DNA from: Bacillota bacterium
GTDB lineage: Bacteria > Bacillota > Sulfobacillia > Sulfobacillales > Sulfobacillaceae
Assembly: GCA_021821465.1 (NCBI GenBank)
Contig: JAKACM010000041.1
Span: forward strand, 1 to 37,031
Reading direction: 5' to 3'
DNA length: 37,031 nt
A program made the position numbers and the translations under genes. How positions within the stretch are numbered: the first letter of the stretch is position 1; every line of letters starts with the position of its first letter. Positions 2,554 through 32,331 of this stretch are shown here, in pieces. The notes beneath the pieces were generated by a model. It ran no database searches and had not been told where the DNA came from. It saw only the letters and a program-made list of their open reading frames with translations.

Positions 2554-3154
2554 GAGCACTACGTTATCTTGGCCATCACACCATGGGATGCGTGTCCCAG
2601 TTCCCGATTCTGTGGTCTGCTATTAGACAGTCCTGGGGGACGGGGCCGTGTACTGGGCGCGACAAGTCCTGATAACTTTGGCGAAGGGCCATGGACTTCG
2701 AAAGGAGGAATGATGATTCCTTTTGTGGCTCCATACGGTAGCGGAAGGGGTCGAGAGCGTCGGCTTTTGGAGGGAGAGAAGAGTGCTGAAAGAATAATAA
2801 ACGGAAAACAAGCCTGGGTATTATCGGTAAGTTTTCTGTAACAGTAATATGGTCAAAGAAGTCGCAGTCTTTGTCTGGGGATGTGCTGAGGTTCTGATGG
2901 CAGAAGGGCCAAAGTTCAATAATAGGTAGACGAAGCGTACGTGCCGACGAATCATTCAGCACTGTCTTGGGCATTAGCTTATATTCATCGGCTGCGTTGG
3001 TGATTGCTAGGCAAGGTGCTCTCATCAAGTCGCTGTGGCGAATGATTGGCTACTAAACAAGGATTTAACGAACTGGCGTATCGAAAAAGTGATCGGAGTT
3101 TAGGGAAGCAAACGATGGAAAAAACCCTACGGGGAGAAAGGAGGTCACCTGGTT

Positions 3155-3244
3155 TTGTGGTGGAACACAGTGATGCGCGAGAGCATCCCAGGGATTGAAT
3201 GTGACACCACGAGTCCGAAAGGGCTTCTAAGACCTATGTTGTGA
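3155..3244 (+). CDS. Possible 29-residue small protein or leader peptide
   Basis: A near-perfect Shine-Dalgarno sequence, AAAGGAGGT at 3137-3145, stands about ten bases before a TTG at 3155. This frame runs 29 codons to a TGA at 3242, 38 bases before the rhodanese-like gene; a GTG at 3157 opens another frame of only about 13 codons. The product begins MWWNTVMRESIPG and contains one cysteine; it resembles no family I know. The strong ribosome binding site is the only argument for translation. It could be a leader peptide, a small protein, or a chance match inside decayed DNA. Confidence 0.2.
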   Translation: MWWNTVMRESIPGIECDTTSPKGLLRPML

Positions 3245-3282
3245 ATTTCGTAGGTTTTTGAAACCAGGCAGGAATCTCGGCA

Positions 3283-3606
3283 ATGATTGGCGAAATAACT
3301 GCTCGGGAATTACGTGAGCGCTTAAGTTCTAGTCGGGCGAGTCATTCCATTACCGTTATTGATGTGCGCTTGGCGCAAATCGGAACCATTCCGGGGGCTC
3401 GGCACGTTCCGGTTACGGATCTGGAAGACAAAGAATGGGATTGGGATCCCGACAGCGAACTGGTGGTGTACTGTCAGTTTGGAAAAGGCGGCAGTGACTA
3501 TGCTGCCGAAGTTTTGGAAGAGCAAGGGTATCGAAGAGTTTATAAGTTGGTGGGCGGTATGGACAGTTGGGCCAAGCTGGTGAGTGAAGCTCAGAAAGAC
3601 GTCTGA
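3283..3606 (+). CDS. Rhodanese-like domain protein
   Basis: A 107-residue single-domain rhodanese of the cytosolic type. The family transfers sulfane sulfur through a persulfide on the active-site cysteine. C64 opens the loop CQFGKGG after the strand LVVYC, and the typical end, LVGGMDSWAKL, is present. The usual basic residue of the C-x5-R loop is absent; a lysine sits in the middle of the loop instead, so the donor or acceptor cannot be named. The start ATG at 3283 has an AGGAA about ten bases ahead. It precedes an ArsB/NhaD-type permease by 53 bases and may be co-transcribed with it. A role in sulfur or arsenic handling is conjecture from that neighbour. Confidence 0.88.
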   Translation: MIGEITARELRERLSSSRASHSITVIDVRLAQIGTIPGARHVPVTDLEDKEWDWDPDSELVVYCQFGKGGSDYAAEVLEEQGYRRVYKLVGGMDSWAKLVSEAQKDV

Positions 3607-3659
3607 TCTTTATCGAGCCCCGGGGACAGCCGAACAACAAAGAGGGGATCGTAAAAGGG

Positions 3660-4922
3660 ATGTCGCAAGCGCAAATTGCCTTGGCAGCTCTCGTGCTTTT
3701 ATATATTTTTCTTATCGGTGACTGGTTTCATCGTGCCTGGGCTGCTTTGGGAGTTGCGGGGCTCTTGGTTCTCTTGCGCGTTATCACATTTCAAGATGCT
3801 ATTCGTGCCATTGATTTCAATACCATTGGCCTGTTGTTGGGGATGATGGTGCTGGTCGGCCTGTTAGGGGAAGCCGGATTGTTTTTCCGCTTCGGACTCA
3901 AAGCGCGCCAGATGGCACGAGGACAGCCAAAGCGCCTCTTTTGGGTTTTCTTTGTATTGACTGCCGTATTATCGGCATTCTTGGACAACGTGACCACCAT
4001 CTTGCTGTTGTCCCCGGCGTTGTTTCGAACTGCCGAAGGCATGGATTTGGACCCTGTCCCTTTTTTGATGGCCATGATCGTTTGCTCGAACTTGGGAGGA
4101 ATGGCCACTTTAGTTGGGGATCCGCCCAATATTCTGATCGGAACCGCGGCGAAAATGTCATTCAATACCTTTCTTGGCCATTTGGGAATGCCAGCCATCT
4201 TGTTATTGATGGGAGCGGCCTTGATATTGCCTAGGCTATTAAAATGGCAGGCGAATCCCCAAGTCATTGCGGTGGATCCTTATCGAGTTCCCAAAGATTT
4301 TCCTTTGGCCAATCGCTTAACGCCATTGTTGGTTGTCCTTGGCATGGTTTTGATTGCATTTGTCTTGCAAGACGTTTTCCATTGGATGTCTGGTGCTATT
4401 GCCATGGGTGGGGGTTTCTTGGGACTATTGGTATCGGGACGACGCGCAGGGAGATTTTGGCACGTAGTGGATTGGGGCACTTTAGGATTTTTTATGGGCA
4501 TATTTATCTTGGTGGGAGCATTGGAAAAGGGCGGGATCGTCATCCGTGTCGCCAATTTTTTGAGCCACGTGCACTTAGCAAACAATTTGCCTTTATTGGT
4601 ATTGTTGATTAGTGCGGTGTTGTCGGCTGTGGTGGATAATGTGCCGTTGGTTGCCGCAATGATTCCCGTTATCCGTTATCTTCTTCACAGTTTGCCGACT
4701 TATAATTCGGAATTGTGGATAGCTTTGGCCATGGGAGCAGCGATTGGAGGAAATGCGACAATTCTGGGATCTTCGGCTAATATTGTGGCTCAGGGTCTGG
4801 CTCAAAAACGAGGCTATACTTTAAGTTTTCGCCGTTATCTTCCCTTTGGCCTTAAGATGTTTGGACTGAGTTTAGTTTTGGGAGCGGTGTATCTTGTTGC
4901 TCTGGGGGAAATCCTGGGATAA
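3660..4922 (+). CDS. ArsB/NhaD/SLC13-type ion transporter (citrate transporter-like domain)
   Basis: A 420-residue polytopic inner-membrane transporter with roughly ten to eleven hydrophobic segments. Its internal duplication is visible. FLDNVTTILLLSP and VVDNVPLVAAMIP are the two helix-hairpin motifs, and GGMATLVGDPPNILIG and GGNATILGSSANIV are the paired substrate-site loops of the ion transporter superfamily. This places it with ArsB (arsenite), NhaD (Na+/H+) and SLC13 carriers. The substrate cannot be decided from sequence alone. The start is ATG at 3660 with AAAAGGG close before it and AGAGGGG further up; the gene follows the rhodanese-like gene. No terminator is seen in the 84 bases after it. 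Confidence 0.88.
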   Translation: MSQAQIALAALVLLYIFLIGDWFHRAWAALGVAGLLVLLRVITFQDAIRAIDFNTIGLLLGMMVLVGLLGEAGLFFRFGLKARQMARGQPKRLFWVFFVLTAVLSAFLDNVTTILLLSPALFRTAEGMDLDPVPFLMAMIVCSNLGGMATLVGDPPNILIGTAAKMSFNTFLGHLGMPAILLLMGAALILPRLLKWQANPQVIAVDPYRVPKDFPLANRLTPLLVVLGMVLIAFVLQDVFHWMSGAIAMGGGFLGLLVSGRRAGRFWHVVDWGTLGFFMGIFILVGALEKGGIVIRVANFLSHVHLANNLPLLVLLISAVLSAVVDNVPLVAAMIPVIRYLLHSLPTYNSELWIALAMGAAIGGNATILGSSANIVAQGLAQKRGYTLSFRRYLPFGLKMFGLSLVLGAVYLVALGEILG

Positions 4923-7084: not shown

Positions 7085-7225
7085 ATGAGGCCAAGATGCC
7101 CGTGCGGGACACTTCACCAAGCAGAAGGCATCCACTCAGGGTCTATACCAAATCGGGCGGCGGGCAACATCGTGAGCACAGATGTGAATGGCGCAATCCA
7201 TATCCCGGCAAATCCCCGGCTTTGA
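7085..7225 (+). pseudogene. Decayed C-terminal end of an IS200/IS605-type TnpB
   Basis: The frame ending at 7225 contains GNIVSTDVNGAIHI, which matches the conserved TnpB tail pattern (xDVNGAxNI) that carries a RuvC catalytic aspartate. A neighbouring frame at 7138-7162 reads RVYTKSGGG, which fits the stretch normally just before it, so at least one frameshift separates the two. No intact zinc finger or upstream RuvC motifs are present. I read this as the scar of an element inserted between rpiB and upp, the spot occupied by glyA in Bacillus. The match is short, so confidence is moderate. The rest of the 6963-7270 gap holds no gene. Confidence 0.5.
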
Positions 7226-7270
7226 TCATGGGGACTATCAATATATTGACAAAAGAAACGAGGAATTTGT

Positions 7271-17258: not shown

Positions 17259-17396
17259 CTCTTATCAAGAGCGGCGGAGGGACAGGCCCGATGAAGCCCG
17301 GCAACCGGCAGAGATGCCATGGTGCCAAACCCGACCCCATCTGGGGACGGATGAGAGATGCCGCTGATTCTCTTCTCTCTAGAAGAGGATTTTTTT
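17259..17396 (+). promoter_or_regulatory. SAM-I (S-box) riboswitch with terminator
   Basis: P1 is CTCTTATC (17259-17266) with GATGAGAG (17350-17357). The conserved core is present: AGAGCGGCGGAGGGA, CCCGATGAAGCCCGGCAACC and GGTGCCAAACCC. Behind it ATTCTCTTCT (17367-17376), loop CTCT and AGAAGAGGAT (17381-17390) form a terminator followed by six further T. The known mechanism is termination when SAM binds and read-through into metK when it is scarce. The CTCTC part of the terminator can pair with the GAGAG of P1, which gives a plausible antiterminator. Confidence 0.95.
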
Positions 17397-17427: not shown

Positions 17428-18627
17428 GTGGGACGCAATTTCCTATTTACATCGGAATCGGTCACGGAAGGACATCCGGACAAAATTGCAGATCAAATTT
17501 CCGATGCCATTTTGGATCGTATCCTGGCAGAAGATCCGGCGGCACGGGTGGCTGCCGAAACTGTTGTTACCACGGGGATGGCTTTGGTTGTAGGAGAAAT
17601 TTCAACAAAAACTTATGTGGACATTCCTCACACGGTGAGGGAAACAATCCGCTCTATCGGCTATACACGGGCTAAAATGGGCTTTGATGCAGACACTGTG
17701 TCCGTGTTAACCTCAATTGATGAACAATCTCCCGATATTGCGCAGGGAGTGAACCAGGCCCTGGAAACGCGAGAAGGGTCCCAAGACGCCCGGGCATTAA
17801 TTGGAGCAGGAGATCAGGGCATGGTCTTTGGGTTTGCCTGCAACGAGACACCGGAACTCATGCCTTTGCCGATTTCTTTGGCCCACCGGTTGTCATATCG
17901 ATTGGCGGAGGTACGCAAGACAGGTGTGGTGCCTTTTTTGTGGCCAGACGGTAAAACCCAAGTCACCGTGCGCTATGAAAATGGCAAACCGGTGGGTATC
18001 GATACCATTCTCATATCCACGCAGCACCGGAGTTCCGTCGATTTGGAGCGTGTTTCAGAAGCCGTCATCCAAGAGGTCATCCGGCCGGTGATTGCTTCGG
18101 ATTGGGATTTGTCTCAGATACGGGTTTTGGTCAATCCCACAGGGCGTTTTGTGGTGGGAGGTCCCCACGGGGATTCGGGTTTAACCGGCCGAAAAATCAT
18201 TGTAGACACTTACGGGGGTTATGCGCGCCATGGAGGCGGGGCTTTTTCCGGAAAAGATCCCACCAAAGTCGATCGTTCGGCGTCTTATGCGGCCCGGTGG
18301 GTGGCAAAAAACCTGGTCGCGGCGCAATTGGCGACTAAAGCGGAGATTCAGATTGCCTACGCCATTGGTGTGGCGGAACCCTTGTCCGTGATGGTTGACA
18401 CCTTCGGCACGGGGCGACTCCCGGATGATCTGTTGGCTGCCGCGGTCCGTAAAGTTTTTGATTTGCGTCCTTTGGGCATCATTGAAGACTTGGATCTGAG
18501 CCGCCCCATTTATCTACCGACAGCGGCTTACGGCCACTTTGGTCGCACAGATGTTCTTTTTCCGTGGGAACAGCTTAACCGGGTGGACGCTTTGCTGTCT
18601 CAAGTCGAGGTTAACATGAGACACTAG
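17428..18627 (+). CDS. metK: S-adenosylmethionine synthetase
   Basis: Makes SAM from methionine and ATP. The 399-residue protein has the family motifs [16 protein letters not shown] near the N-terminus, the [12 protein letters not shown] hexapeptide region and the glycine-rich P-loop-like [19 protein letters not shown] start at 17428 follows GAAGGAGG at seven bases. The gene is controlled by the SAM-I riboswitch in its leader, so the product of the enzyme shuts off its own gene. It is transcribed alone; a hairpin-rich stretch follows. Confidence 0.98.
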
Positions 18628-18630
18628 AAC

Positions 18631-18662
18631 CTTGACATTCCCCATGGCTAAAGCGGGGGAAG
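18631..18662 (-). mobile_element. IS200/IS605-type terminal hairpin remnant
   Basis: On the minus strand the segment reads CTTCCCCCGCTTTAGCC followed by ATGGGGAATGTCAAGG: a stem of CCCC/GGGG around GCTTTAGCC, the form I associate with the right end of TnpB-carrying IS200/IS605 elements (also the 3' end of the guide RNA). It starts three bases after the metK stop. No transposase or tnpB gene is next to it, so it is at most an end left by a lost element. The match is from memory of the motif, not from a search. Confidence 0.4.
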
Positions 18663-18677
18663 CTTTGTAAGGACCAT

Positions 18678-18716
18678 TCACATGGTTGGCTCGCACGGTG
18701 CGAGCCAACCATGTGA
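18678..18716. repeat. 39-nt near-perfect palindrome after metK
   Basis: Two 19-base arms (18678-18696 and 18698-18716) are exact reverse complements around a single G at 18697. The arms begin TCACATGG and end GCTCGCAC. There is no T tract, so this is not a standard terminator. It could fold into a very stable RNA hairpin or a cruciform, or be a protein-binding site. Confidence 0.85.
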
Positions 18717-18741
18717 CCCATTGTACGCAATCTCCTGTCCT

Positions 18742-18756
18742 GTTCGTTTGCCGAAC
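18742..18756. repeat. Small hairpin in the post-metK array
   Basis: GTTCG and CGAAC separated by TTTGC. It stands between the two large inverted repeats. Confidence 0.4.
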
Positions 18757-18761
18757 GGCCA

Positions 18762-18803
18762 ATGTCTTATATCCCCCTAGCTTTTCGGGGGGATATAAGA
18801 CAT
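18762..18803. repeat. 16-bp inverted repeat after metK
   Basis: Arms 18762-18777 (ATGTCTTATATCCCCC) and 18788-18803 are exact reverse complements with a 10-base loop. No T tract follows on either strand. Confidence 0.85.
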
Positions 18804-18822
18804 ATGGGATAATGAGCATTTG

Positions 18823-18858
18823 CCCCTCAAGGTTCGTCTACCGAGATCCGATGAGGGG
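18823..18858. repeat. 7-bp inverted repeat, last of the post-metK array
   Basis: CCCCTCA (18823-18829) and TGAGGGG (18852-18858) enclose a 22-base loop that holds a smaller GGT/ACC pairing. Confidence 0.5.
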
Positions 18859-18867
18859 ATATTCTAT

Positions 18868-18960
18868 ATGATGATGAAGTTCCAAGATTGGGTGCGGCAT
18901 GAAGCCATGGTATCTTGGACTAGTCGAGAGGAGGATCCTTTCCTGCTTTCACAAGCCTAA
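18868..18960 (+). CDS. Possible 30-residue peptide, perhaps a transposase N-terminal fragment
   Basis: The frame starts with three ATG codons in a row and reads MMMKFQDWVRHEAMVSW before stopping at 18958-18960. Upstream GAGGGGATATTCT offers a weak ribosome binding site. It lies directly behind the hairpin array, a typical place for the start of an insertion-sequence gene, but the peptide is too short to assign to any family. It may be chance. Confidence 0.15.
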   Translation: MMMKFQDWVRHEAMVSWTSREEDPFLLSQA

Positions 18961-19242
18961 CTACTATGATTAATGTTCGTAACGATGGAGAAGTTTTGAG
19001 AAATCCGTGGAATGATCATTCGTGTTGACATTATTTGGCGACGGCTTGAACCGGACGAGGGCGGGATTTTCGGAACATATCTTTAGAAGATAGTGGCCAC
19101 TCCCTATCGTATCCAAAAGGGATAGATAAGGGGTGATCGGGCCTGCCAAAATCATCACTGGAACCCGAGATGCACAGGCGAAAACACCAGTCTCGTGAGG
19201 AACCCTGGTGAAGCCTGGAGAGCCGTGCCGGTGCGATATTGT
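18961..19242. other. Gene-free stretch before the cold-shock gene, with two small hairpins
   Basis: TATCTT, loop TAG, AAGATA (19078-19092) and CCCTATC (19102-19108) with GGGATAG (19119-19125) are the only structures I see. No coding frame with a supported start was found. Confidence 0.4.
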
Positions 19243-19271
19243 TTGACTTTTTTGGTAGGGGGTGCTATATT
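19243..19271 (+). promoter_or_regulatory. Sigma-A-type promoter of the cold-shock gene
   Basis: TTGACT (19243-19248), a 17-base spacer and TATATT (19266-19271). The predicted leader is about 50 bases and contains a hairpin, TGTCCT (19281-19286) with AGGACA (19294-19299), just before the AAAGGGG ribosome binding site. Cold-shock leaders are often regulated through RNA structure, but this one is short. Confidence 0.75.
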
Positions 19272-19326
19272 GAACGCGGTTGTCCTGGATGGTAGGACAG
19301 CTTTAAGAAAGGGGACATATTTTAGC

Positions 19327-19524
19327 ATGACCGGACGTGTCAAATGGTTCAGTGCAGAAAAAGGGTACGGATTCTTAGAGCGTGAAGACGGCGGTGACGT
19401 GTTTGTGCATTACACGGCCATTAATGGCGAAGGTTTCCGTACGCTCAATGAAGGTGAGCGTGTCGAATTTGATGTAGTGGAGGGTGATCGCGGCCCACAG
19501 GCTGCGAACGTCGTCCGCCTCTAA
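19327..19524 (+). CDS. csp: Cold-shock domain protein
   Basis: Single-stranded nucleic-acid-binding RNA chaperone with one cold-shock domain. The 65-residue product has RNP1 as KGYGFLE and RNP2 as VFVHY, with W9 and F10 in the first strand. ATG at 19327 follows AAAGGGG at about a dozen bases; a longer open frame to 19195 would include the promoter and is not used. The gene stands alone between its own promoter and a terminator. Confidence 0.96.
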
Positions 19525-31723: not shown

Positions 31724-32331
31724 GAGAAGTCAGTCCTTTTCCTGCCACTTTTCTATATCACGCACAAGCGTAAACGCTAACAATAAATTTTATCACAACT
31801 GAGCCAAAATTCGTTGAGGACGGACCACACTCCCTTTCGTTTCTCTGACGATATCACAAAGACAAGGGGCAATCCTCTTTGTCTTTGGCAGGTTGTCCCT
31901 GAAAGGTACTTATCCGCGCATCAAATATTTTGTCTTGATCCATTCGTTCAAATTCGCAGCCGTTCTCTCATGCGAATCCTTGTTAGTGGACGCGATTATT
32001 CGCCGCATCTTGTTATGATTCGGTCTTGATCGCAGCCTAGATTGTATCGATCTCGCGATTCGGGGACCATGAGCTTAATCCGATGTTAAAGGGAGACTAT
32101 CAATTCGGGACCACACAAATGGCTTAGAGCGGTATATCGTTTGGATTATTTCTCTCGTAGTGTGAGATCTTGAGATTTTTGGCGCTGAGCCAAGGGGTTT
32201 TATGGCGCATTTTATAACTTCGCATGGGGAATTCCTTTTCTTAGGATACAATAAAGAGGGGATGGGTCAAGAGTCCGTGATTGCGGCCGACCCTCTACAC
32301 TTCAGGAATGGCAAAAGGAGGGAAAAGAAGG
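31724..32331. other. 608-base gap between the divergent MFS and CBS genes
   Basis: Besides the palindrome above it holds an inverted repeat, CAAAGACAA (31857-31865) with TTGTCTTTG (31879-31887), 13 bases apart. TACAAT at about 32246-32251 may be a -10 for the CBS gene, without a good -35. The 71-codon frame at 31814-32029 shows no motif. Confidence 0.4.
31767..31778. repeat. Palindrome upstream of the MFS gene, possible operator
   Basis: AGCGT-AA-ACGCT, about 44 bases before the MFS start. On the minus strand TTGTTA (31783-31778) just before it could be a -35; the matching -10 is poor. Confidence 0.35.

Follow-up and report, generated by a model that had tools for sequence, protein, structure and literature searches.

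In IS608, the left and right cleavage sites (CL and CR) are TTAC and TCAA and the corresponding guides (GL and GR) are AAAG and GAAT, as given in the available part of PMC5934647. Palindrome-associated transposable elements (PATEs) are known from Haloquadratum walsbyi, and according to the accessible sections of PMC3119063 some of them were formed by loss of the core. A separate body of work, available to us in excerpts, describes template switching in quasipalindromes, in which several changes arise simultaneously and all of them complete the palindrome (PMC7202029; PMC8794818). The portion of PMC9956272 at hand contains nothing on gene-less elements.

The window, i.e. the whole stretch of DNA analysed (37,031 nt), contains a dense array of hairpins that starts 4 bases past the stop codon of metK (18627). 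A sequence-only reading had reported these hairpins, and every one of them was found again at its reported position (Table 1). Of the 13 pairs of inverted arms listed for the window at a spacing of up to 60 bases, those of 19 bp and 16 bp are the longest perfect ones. The maximum perfect stem of 19 bp compares to 8–13 bp in 40 dinucleotide shuffles of the window (loop 0–12). The hairpins are real and beyond chance. We conclude with high confidence that the array is a minimal gene-less IS200/IS605-type element lying on the minus strand. The sequence-only reading had offered a non-autonomous mobile element with an IS605-like hairpin as one explanation, and two end models bear this out, in that the hairpins form the ends and the interior of one minus-strand element. 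Read on the minus strand from 18812 to 18632, the order is TTATC, left-end hairpin, 39-nt palindrome, right-end hairpin and TGTCAA; the outermost hairpin reads CTTCCCCCGCTTTAGCCATGGGGAATGTCAA. The stretch 18813–18860, including the 7-bp stem, lies beyond the element borders.

Table 1. Coordinates of the hairpins behind metK and of the features assigned to the element
Feature	Position	Strand	Remarks
Gene-less element, very probably of IS200/IS605 type, 176 nt	18632–18807	minus	Left end 18807, right end 18632
Expected junction without the element	18632–18807	minus	..CATTATC / GGTTCTAG..
TTATC, left flank	18808–18812	minus	Positions 1–5 of the R1 match; presumed retained target or left cleavage site, by analogy to IS608
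Left-end hairpin	18762–18803	minus	Perfect 16-bp stem, 10-nt loop; the family's internal loop is closed
Exact stem, 16 bp, 10-base loop	18762–18777 / 18788–18803		
Small second left-end hairpin	18750–18759	minus	GCCG-TT-CGGC (either strand, up to the loop)
Small hairpins	within 18742–18759		
39-nt palindrome	18678–18696 / 18698–18716	neutral	Arms of 19 nt each, one base between; element interior
Right-end region, R2 match	18632–18692	minus	31.2 bits, E = 2.3e-6
GCTT in place of relatives' GAAT	18660–18663	minus	GAAT in 14/20 relatives
Right-end-type hairpin	18638–18661	minus	TTCCCC..GGGGAA; sequence and R2 match
TCAA, right terminus	18632–18635	minus	Identical to the IS608 right cleavage site (PMC5934647, available part)
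7-bp stem CCCCTCA/TGAGGGG	18823–18829 / 18852–18858		Outside the element

Both end models match at full length, on one strand and in the correct order, and the distance from TTATC to TCAA is 181 nt. The left-end covariance model R1 (21 sequences) matches 18812–18748 with 37.9 bits and an E-value of 1.4e-7; E-values of the covariance models are described as rough by the tool that gives them. Its second-best match scores 14.2 bits. For the right end, model R2, made from 20 sequences, matches 18692–18632, with the next best place at 15.1 bits. The window, and loci fetched because they resembled it, were kept out of both models; some of the R2 loci came from a right-end pattern to which the window's right end conforms as well. 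L151, L153, L155, L156, L161 and L162 (L numbers denote loci) were found by Pfam family alone and have the same kind of end. By sequence profile the right end scores 23.0 bits, compared to at most 11.6 in 100 shuffled windows. The profile made without window-chosen loci gives the left end 10.0 bits over 28 nt, and one of 100 shuffled windows reached 15.9. The assignment of the left end rests on structure and place, because the plain sequence profile is weak there.

The alignments behind these models were drawn from 30 distinct left-end and 33 distinct right-end matches. Alignments A1 and A2 exclude the partial or reversed left ends L191, L193 (twice) and L184 (reversed), the fusions L175 and L167, the repeats L173, L176, L180 and L187, and the short right ends L115, L121, L125 and L195. 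A3 is A1 minus the window, L194, L155 and L166, and A4 is A2 minus the window, L190, L194 and L201; L189–L217, fetched for likeness to the window element, were kept out of the clean profiles and of A3 and A4.

The left end of the family begins with TTATC, continues as GCGCC-GTAAAA-CCCC..GGGG-ATATNA-GGCGC, and is followed by a small hairpin TCGCC..GGCGA, whose place the second left-end hairpin occupies in the window. TTATC starts 21 of 30 left ends of this genome and is missing from nine; the left end L194, from another genus, aligns with the window from TTATC onward. In an alignment of 25 left ends that contains the window and L194, 95.5% of 291 stem cells pair, compared to 35–49% when the columns are slid by 1–3. 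Both-sided changes occupy 12 cells (mean 2.5 in 500 shuffles, none reaching 12) and fall on five pairs (mean 2.0, reached by 6/500), counts that take related sequences as independent. The window itself is among the both-sided changes at three outer-stem pairs. The sequence-only reading had named, as what would speak against it, a unique and untranscribed region whose arms relatives do not conserve as complementary pairs: the whole array is unique in its genome, being single copy at E ≤ 0.001 with the palindrome against itself as the only other match there, but the left-end stem is kept in relatives as covarying pairs. Searching 34 genomes of the family at E up to 10 gave other places only for short pieces among the matches listed, and the useful pieces were left or right ends. 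The pattern of the window's right-end hairpin, read on the plus strand, matched the window alone in eight genomes. A 9-nt match, GAACCTTGA/TCAAGGTTC, was dropped, as it does not lie at both element ends.

The right end connects the element to tnpB. Pfam PF07282 collected 33 tnpB domain matches in this genome (G000), and BLAST of the window region against these loci finds the right end of tnpB element L161 (77% over 56 nt, E = 3e-5), with weaker matches at L155 and L156; L155 encodes a TnpB with OrfB_IS605 and Cas12f1-like_TNB domains. The right-end pattern was found in five of the eight genus genomes searched. Among 13 right-end loci that were read, most reach a left end ~180–355 nt upstream, which leaves no room for tnpB; L185, L172, L167 and L175 misfit the left-end/right-end layout or are fusions. 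At E ≤ 0.001, R1 detects 32 left ends in the genome, with the window in 28th place. Thirty of the 32 were examined (two were not fetched), and a right end follows on the same strand in 23 (R2, E ≤ 0.05) and in none of the other seven. Five of the 23 two-ended elements measure 1417–1445 nt, the size of tnpB elements, 14 measure 301–354 nt, two 677 and 768 nt, and two 178 and 181 nt. The ~180-nt class consists of L266 and the window element. The ends in the window belong to the same end family as those of tnpB-carrying and of ~350-nt tnpB-less elements of the same genome.

What the models mark is seen on the Alicyclobacillus sp. TC plasmid NZ_CP044435.1, to which the left end of L168 is 86% alike over 73 nt. 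In the fetched stretch of this plasmid, on the plus strand, R1 matches 2500–2565 (85.1 bits), a gene annotated as "IS200/IS605 family element RNA-guided endonuclease TnpB" occupies 2607–3779, and R2 matches 3764–3823 (28.9 bits, E = 1.3e-6). The two models flank the annotated tnpB and therefore mark the two ends of an IS200/IS605 element. The window element has no Y1 transposase gene of its own, as 176 nt leaves no room for one, and the only open reading frame of at least 80 aa that touches it (18514–18819, minus strand, 101 aa) continues into metK. Y1 transposase matches occur in all eight genus genomes searched, and G000 has 17 such matches. In genome G001, locus L105 has a left end followed by a Y1 gene and tnpB, then a weak right end (R2, E = 0.0012); a transposase able to act in trans is therefore at hand in the genus.

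The family holds further forms. A ~350-nt tnpB-less element is represented by L168:1176–1529 with copies in G000, G003 and G004, and by L194:1181–1547 in another genus. Matches covering at least 300 of 354 nt number at least 12 in G000, at least eight in G003 and at least three in G004. Its first ~72 nt and last ~120 nt are common to tnpB elements, and its middle of ~160 nt is well conserved; L155 has no room for this middle between left end and tnpB. L168 has no Rfam match and shows both-sided change in 12 of 77 predicted pairs. The ~350-nt element may have retained a functional omega-RNA that serves TnpB in trans. Elsewhere in the window, a decayed ~350-nt copy lies at 32217–31993 on the minus strand, where left end and middle match the three-element profile (E = 1.6e-6), the left end alone scores 19.7 bits, and a right end was not found. 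A right-end-like relic at 7174–7241 on the plus strand (..CCCCGGCTTTGATCATGGGGACTATCAA; R2 15.1 bits, E = 0.037) is without a clear left end. At L175:1501–1549 (G003) and L167:1705–1752 (G006), both minus strand, left and right ends are fused within ~50 nt, in a hairpin that begins as a left end (TTATC..GTAAAAC) and ends as a right end (..GAGTGTCAA).

The borders carry neither terminal inverted repeats, the ends being CCATATG.. and ..TGTCAA, nor a target duplication, since TTATC is present in the left flank only and GGTTC lies beyond the right end. We compared the region preceding csp in six relatives, L019 from among the 80 named metK relatives included; metK adjoins in five of the six, and neither R1 nor R2 has a match at E ≤ 1 in these csp stretches. 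The metK–csp spacer is wholly different in relatives, and no empty site was found. Because the spacers differ too much for one, insertion here is deduced from the element's borders. The window's spacer, 18628–19326, is wholly different in five relatives. By eye, a small open reading frame seems to follow metK in G001, G004, G005 and G006 and is lacking in the window, and in G005 and G006 a further, longer one seems to be present.

The left-end hairpin of relatives is interrupted by an internal loop, in which GTAAAA faces ATATNA. Of 25 left ends, the window and L184 (the L265 site) alone have base pairs at three positions of this loop. The longest perfect left-end stem in this genome is 4–7 bp in 26 of 30 left ends, owing to the conserved loop, and 16–17 bp in four (L265, L271, L278 and the window); L285, in G003, is a further perfected left end. 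Exact patterns across the eight genomes find the looped form GTAAAACCCC..GGGGATAT at 31 sites, GTAAAACCCC..GGGGTTTTAC at one site and ATATCCCC..GGGGATAT at five. Three of these five sites are R1 left ends, namely L287 (the same as L278), L285 and the window, and the other two, L284 and L286, are matched by neither R1 nor R2. At L284 (G000:C75:3487–3516), where neither model matches at E ≤ 1, the perfect hairpin is flanked by more complementary bases. The arm departing from the family is the 5' arm in the window, L278 and L285, and the 3' arm in L265 and L271, which are 97% alike and perhaps represent one event. By comparison with these relatives, the perfect 16-bp stem of the window is probably a derived state. 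The perfected stems fit correction by template switching that would have erased a transposase guide, and the perfect palindromes most likely represent traces of errors in DNA copying, as opposed to a new regulatory device. Tentatively, and at somewhat less than even probability, we propose that left-end hairpins of this family have been perfected repeatedly by template switching in both directions, with rewriting of the 5' arm erasing the presumed guide and so providing a route to self-inactivation. On this view there would be at least four cases: the window, L278, L285 (from G003) and the pair L265/L271, taken as one.

Of the element's hairpins, the 39-nt palindrome alone lies away from an end, and its right arm extends into the stretch that R2 matches. 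The profile of three ~350-nt elements aligns through the palindrome, over 18708–18632 only. We considered that the right arm is the family's TGCGAG stretch and the left arm its inverted copy, an idea that failed the shuffle test (the best score for likeness of the arms to the family was reached by 739 of 2000 shuffles and the mean by 83 of 2000) and is kept as a possibility only. The palindrome may have arisen by template switching too.

These observations suggest a history. The element would have arrived as single-stranded DNA beside TTATC, mobilised in trans by a Y1 transposase (TnpA). By analogy to IS608, cleavage would occur at TTATC on the left and at TCAA on the right; the right guide would be the GAAT that precedes the right hairpin, and GTAAAA is the likely left guide. 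Template switching during replication may then have used one arm of the left-end hairpin as the template for rewriting its partner, and the same process possibly built the palindrome. This rewriting would have removed the bulged GTAAAA, most likely the transposase's guide to its cleavage site, and the right-hand GAAT changed too; at the guide places of the family the window has TTATAT for GTAAAA and GCTT for GAAT. Given IS605-type identity, we regard the window copy as probably an immobile relic: with GTAAAA removed and GAAT changed, it would therefore most likely be dead and without a present role.

It is unlikely that the element is still mobile, in which case it would be a functional PATE, with its perfect left-end stem and altered guides forming a compatible variant on which one of the genome's TnpA proteins can act. 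The ends, TTATC and TCAA are retained, the outer-stem changes are compensatory, Y1 genes are present in the genome, and the perfected L265 and L271, 97% alike at two places, indicate that a perfected element may have moved. However, GTAAAA itself is intact in those two, so they are no argument for the window type; in the window the conserved internal loop and GAAT are both altered, and its element is single-copy. A structure used by the host, whatever its origin, with RNA hairpins or a duplex protein site acting on expression of metK or csp, is very unlikely. It would profit from the closeness to the metK stop codon and from the high stability of the hairpins (–85.0 kcal/mol by RNA folding of the 181-nt segment), but the array is absent from the csp stretches of the six relatives, and all hairpins except the 39-nt palindrome fall on element ends. 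The sequence-only reading was right that no T tract follows: 18400–19400 holds no terminator-like site, that is, no intrinsic terminator of GC-rich hairpin plus T run, and terminator and promoter readings are unsupported there. In the whole window, the SAM riboswitch before metK (17259–17357) is the sole Rfam match at gathering score, and searches of the locus, the whole window and a ~350-nt relative add only one sub-threshold match elsewhere. The structured RNA proposed by the earlier reading thus gained no support of its own, from Rfam or from terminator-like sites, and none was found for its duplex protein site.

Very unlikely too is a working guide RNA, with the right end as the 3' end of an omega-RNA and the guide beyond 18632 (the metK 3' end, antisense), for a TnpB encoded elsewhere. 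In its favour, there is a full-length match to R2, a model spanning the 3' end of tnpB and the right end, and the genome has 33 tnpB domain matches; against this, the ~350-nt profile aligns only from 18708, so the upstream scaffold is missing or replaced by the palindrome, 18400–19400 holds no minus-strand promoter-like site (one promoter type covered), and there is no Rfam match. Chance or an assembly artefact, for which no point was found, is negligible, as the stem lengths exceed those of all 40 shuffles and two independent models matched at full length.

The reading as a decayed gene-less element means that eye-catching features of a spacer, such as a palindrome of 39 nt and a perfect stem of 16 bp, can be transposon-end decay and not a regulatory structure. 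It also yields models of both ends (left TTATC, right TGTCAA) for a family of which the genus carries many copies without genes. If the perfected ends are recurrent template switches, the ends of IS605-type transposons would preserve a natural record of this kind of mutation, and perfection would be a simple way for such transposons to die. As in quasipalindrome mutation (PMC7202029 and PMC8794818, available parts), imperfect inverted repeats would be made perfect in one event; here, in contrast to an assay, the change is deduced by comparing transposon ends. Compared to IS608 (PMC5934647, accessible sections), the window's right end TCAA equals CR, the GAAT of 14/20 relatives equals GR, and TTATC stands at the place of TTAC in IS608 and TTGAT in ISDra2. 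Unlike these two, the window element has neither tnpA nor tnpB, GAAT has become GCTT and GTAAAA has become TTATAT, and the presumed left guide of its family sits in an internal loop. Within the genus, the tnpB-less elements of ~350 nt (L168, L186, L177, L184 and others) have the identical kind of left and right ends, whereas the window copy lacks their ~160-nt middle and has the 39-nt palindrome. PATEs, in the available text of PMC3119063, are likewise too short for a transposase, have palindromes near both ends, lack terminal inverted repeats and target duplication, and have IS605-type ends. They differ in organism and end sequences and in that the window's left-end stem and internal palindrome are perfect; for the window element, no strain-specific insertion was found. 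The window element is thus a member of the PATE kind, with other sequences and in a bacterium, and nothing categorically new.
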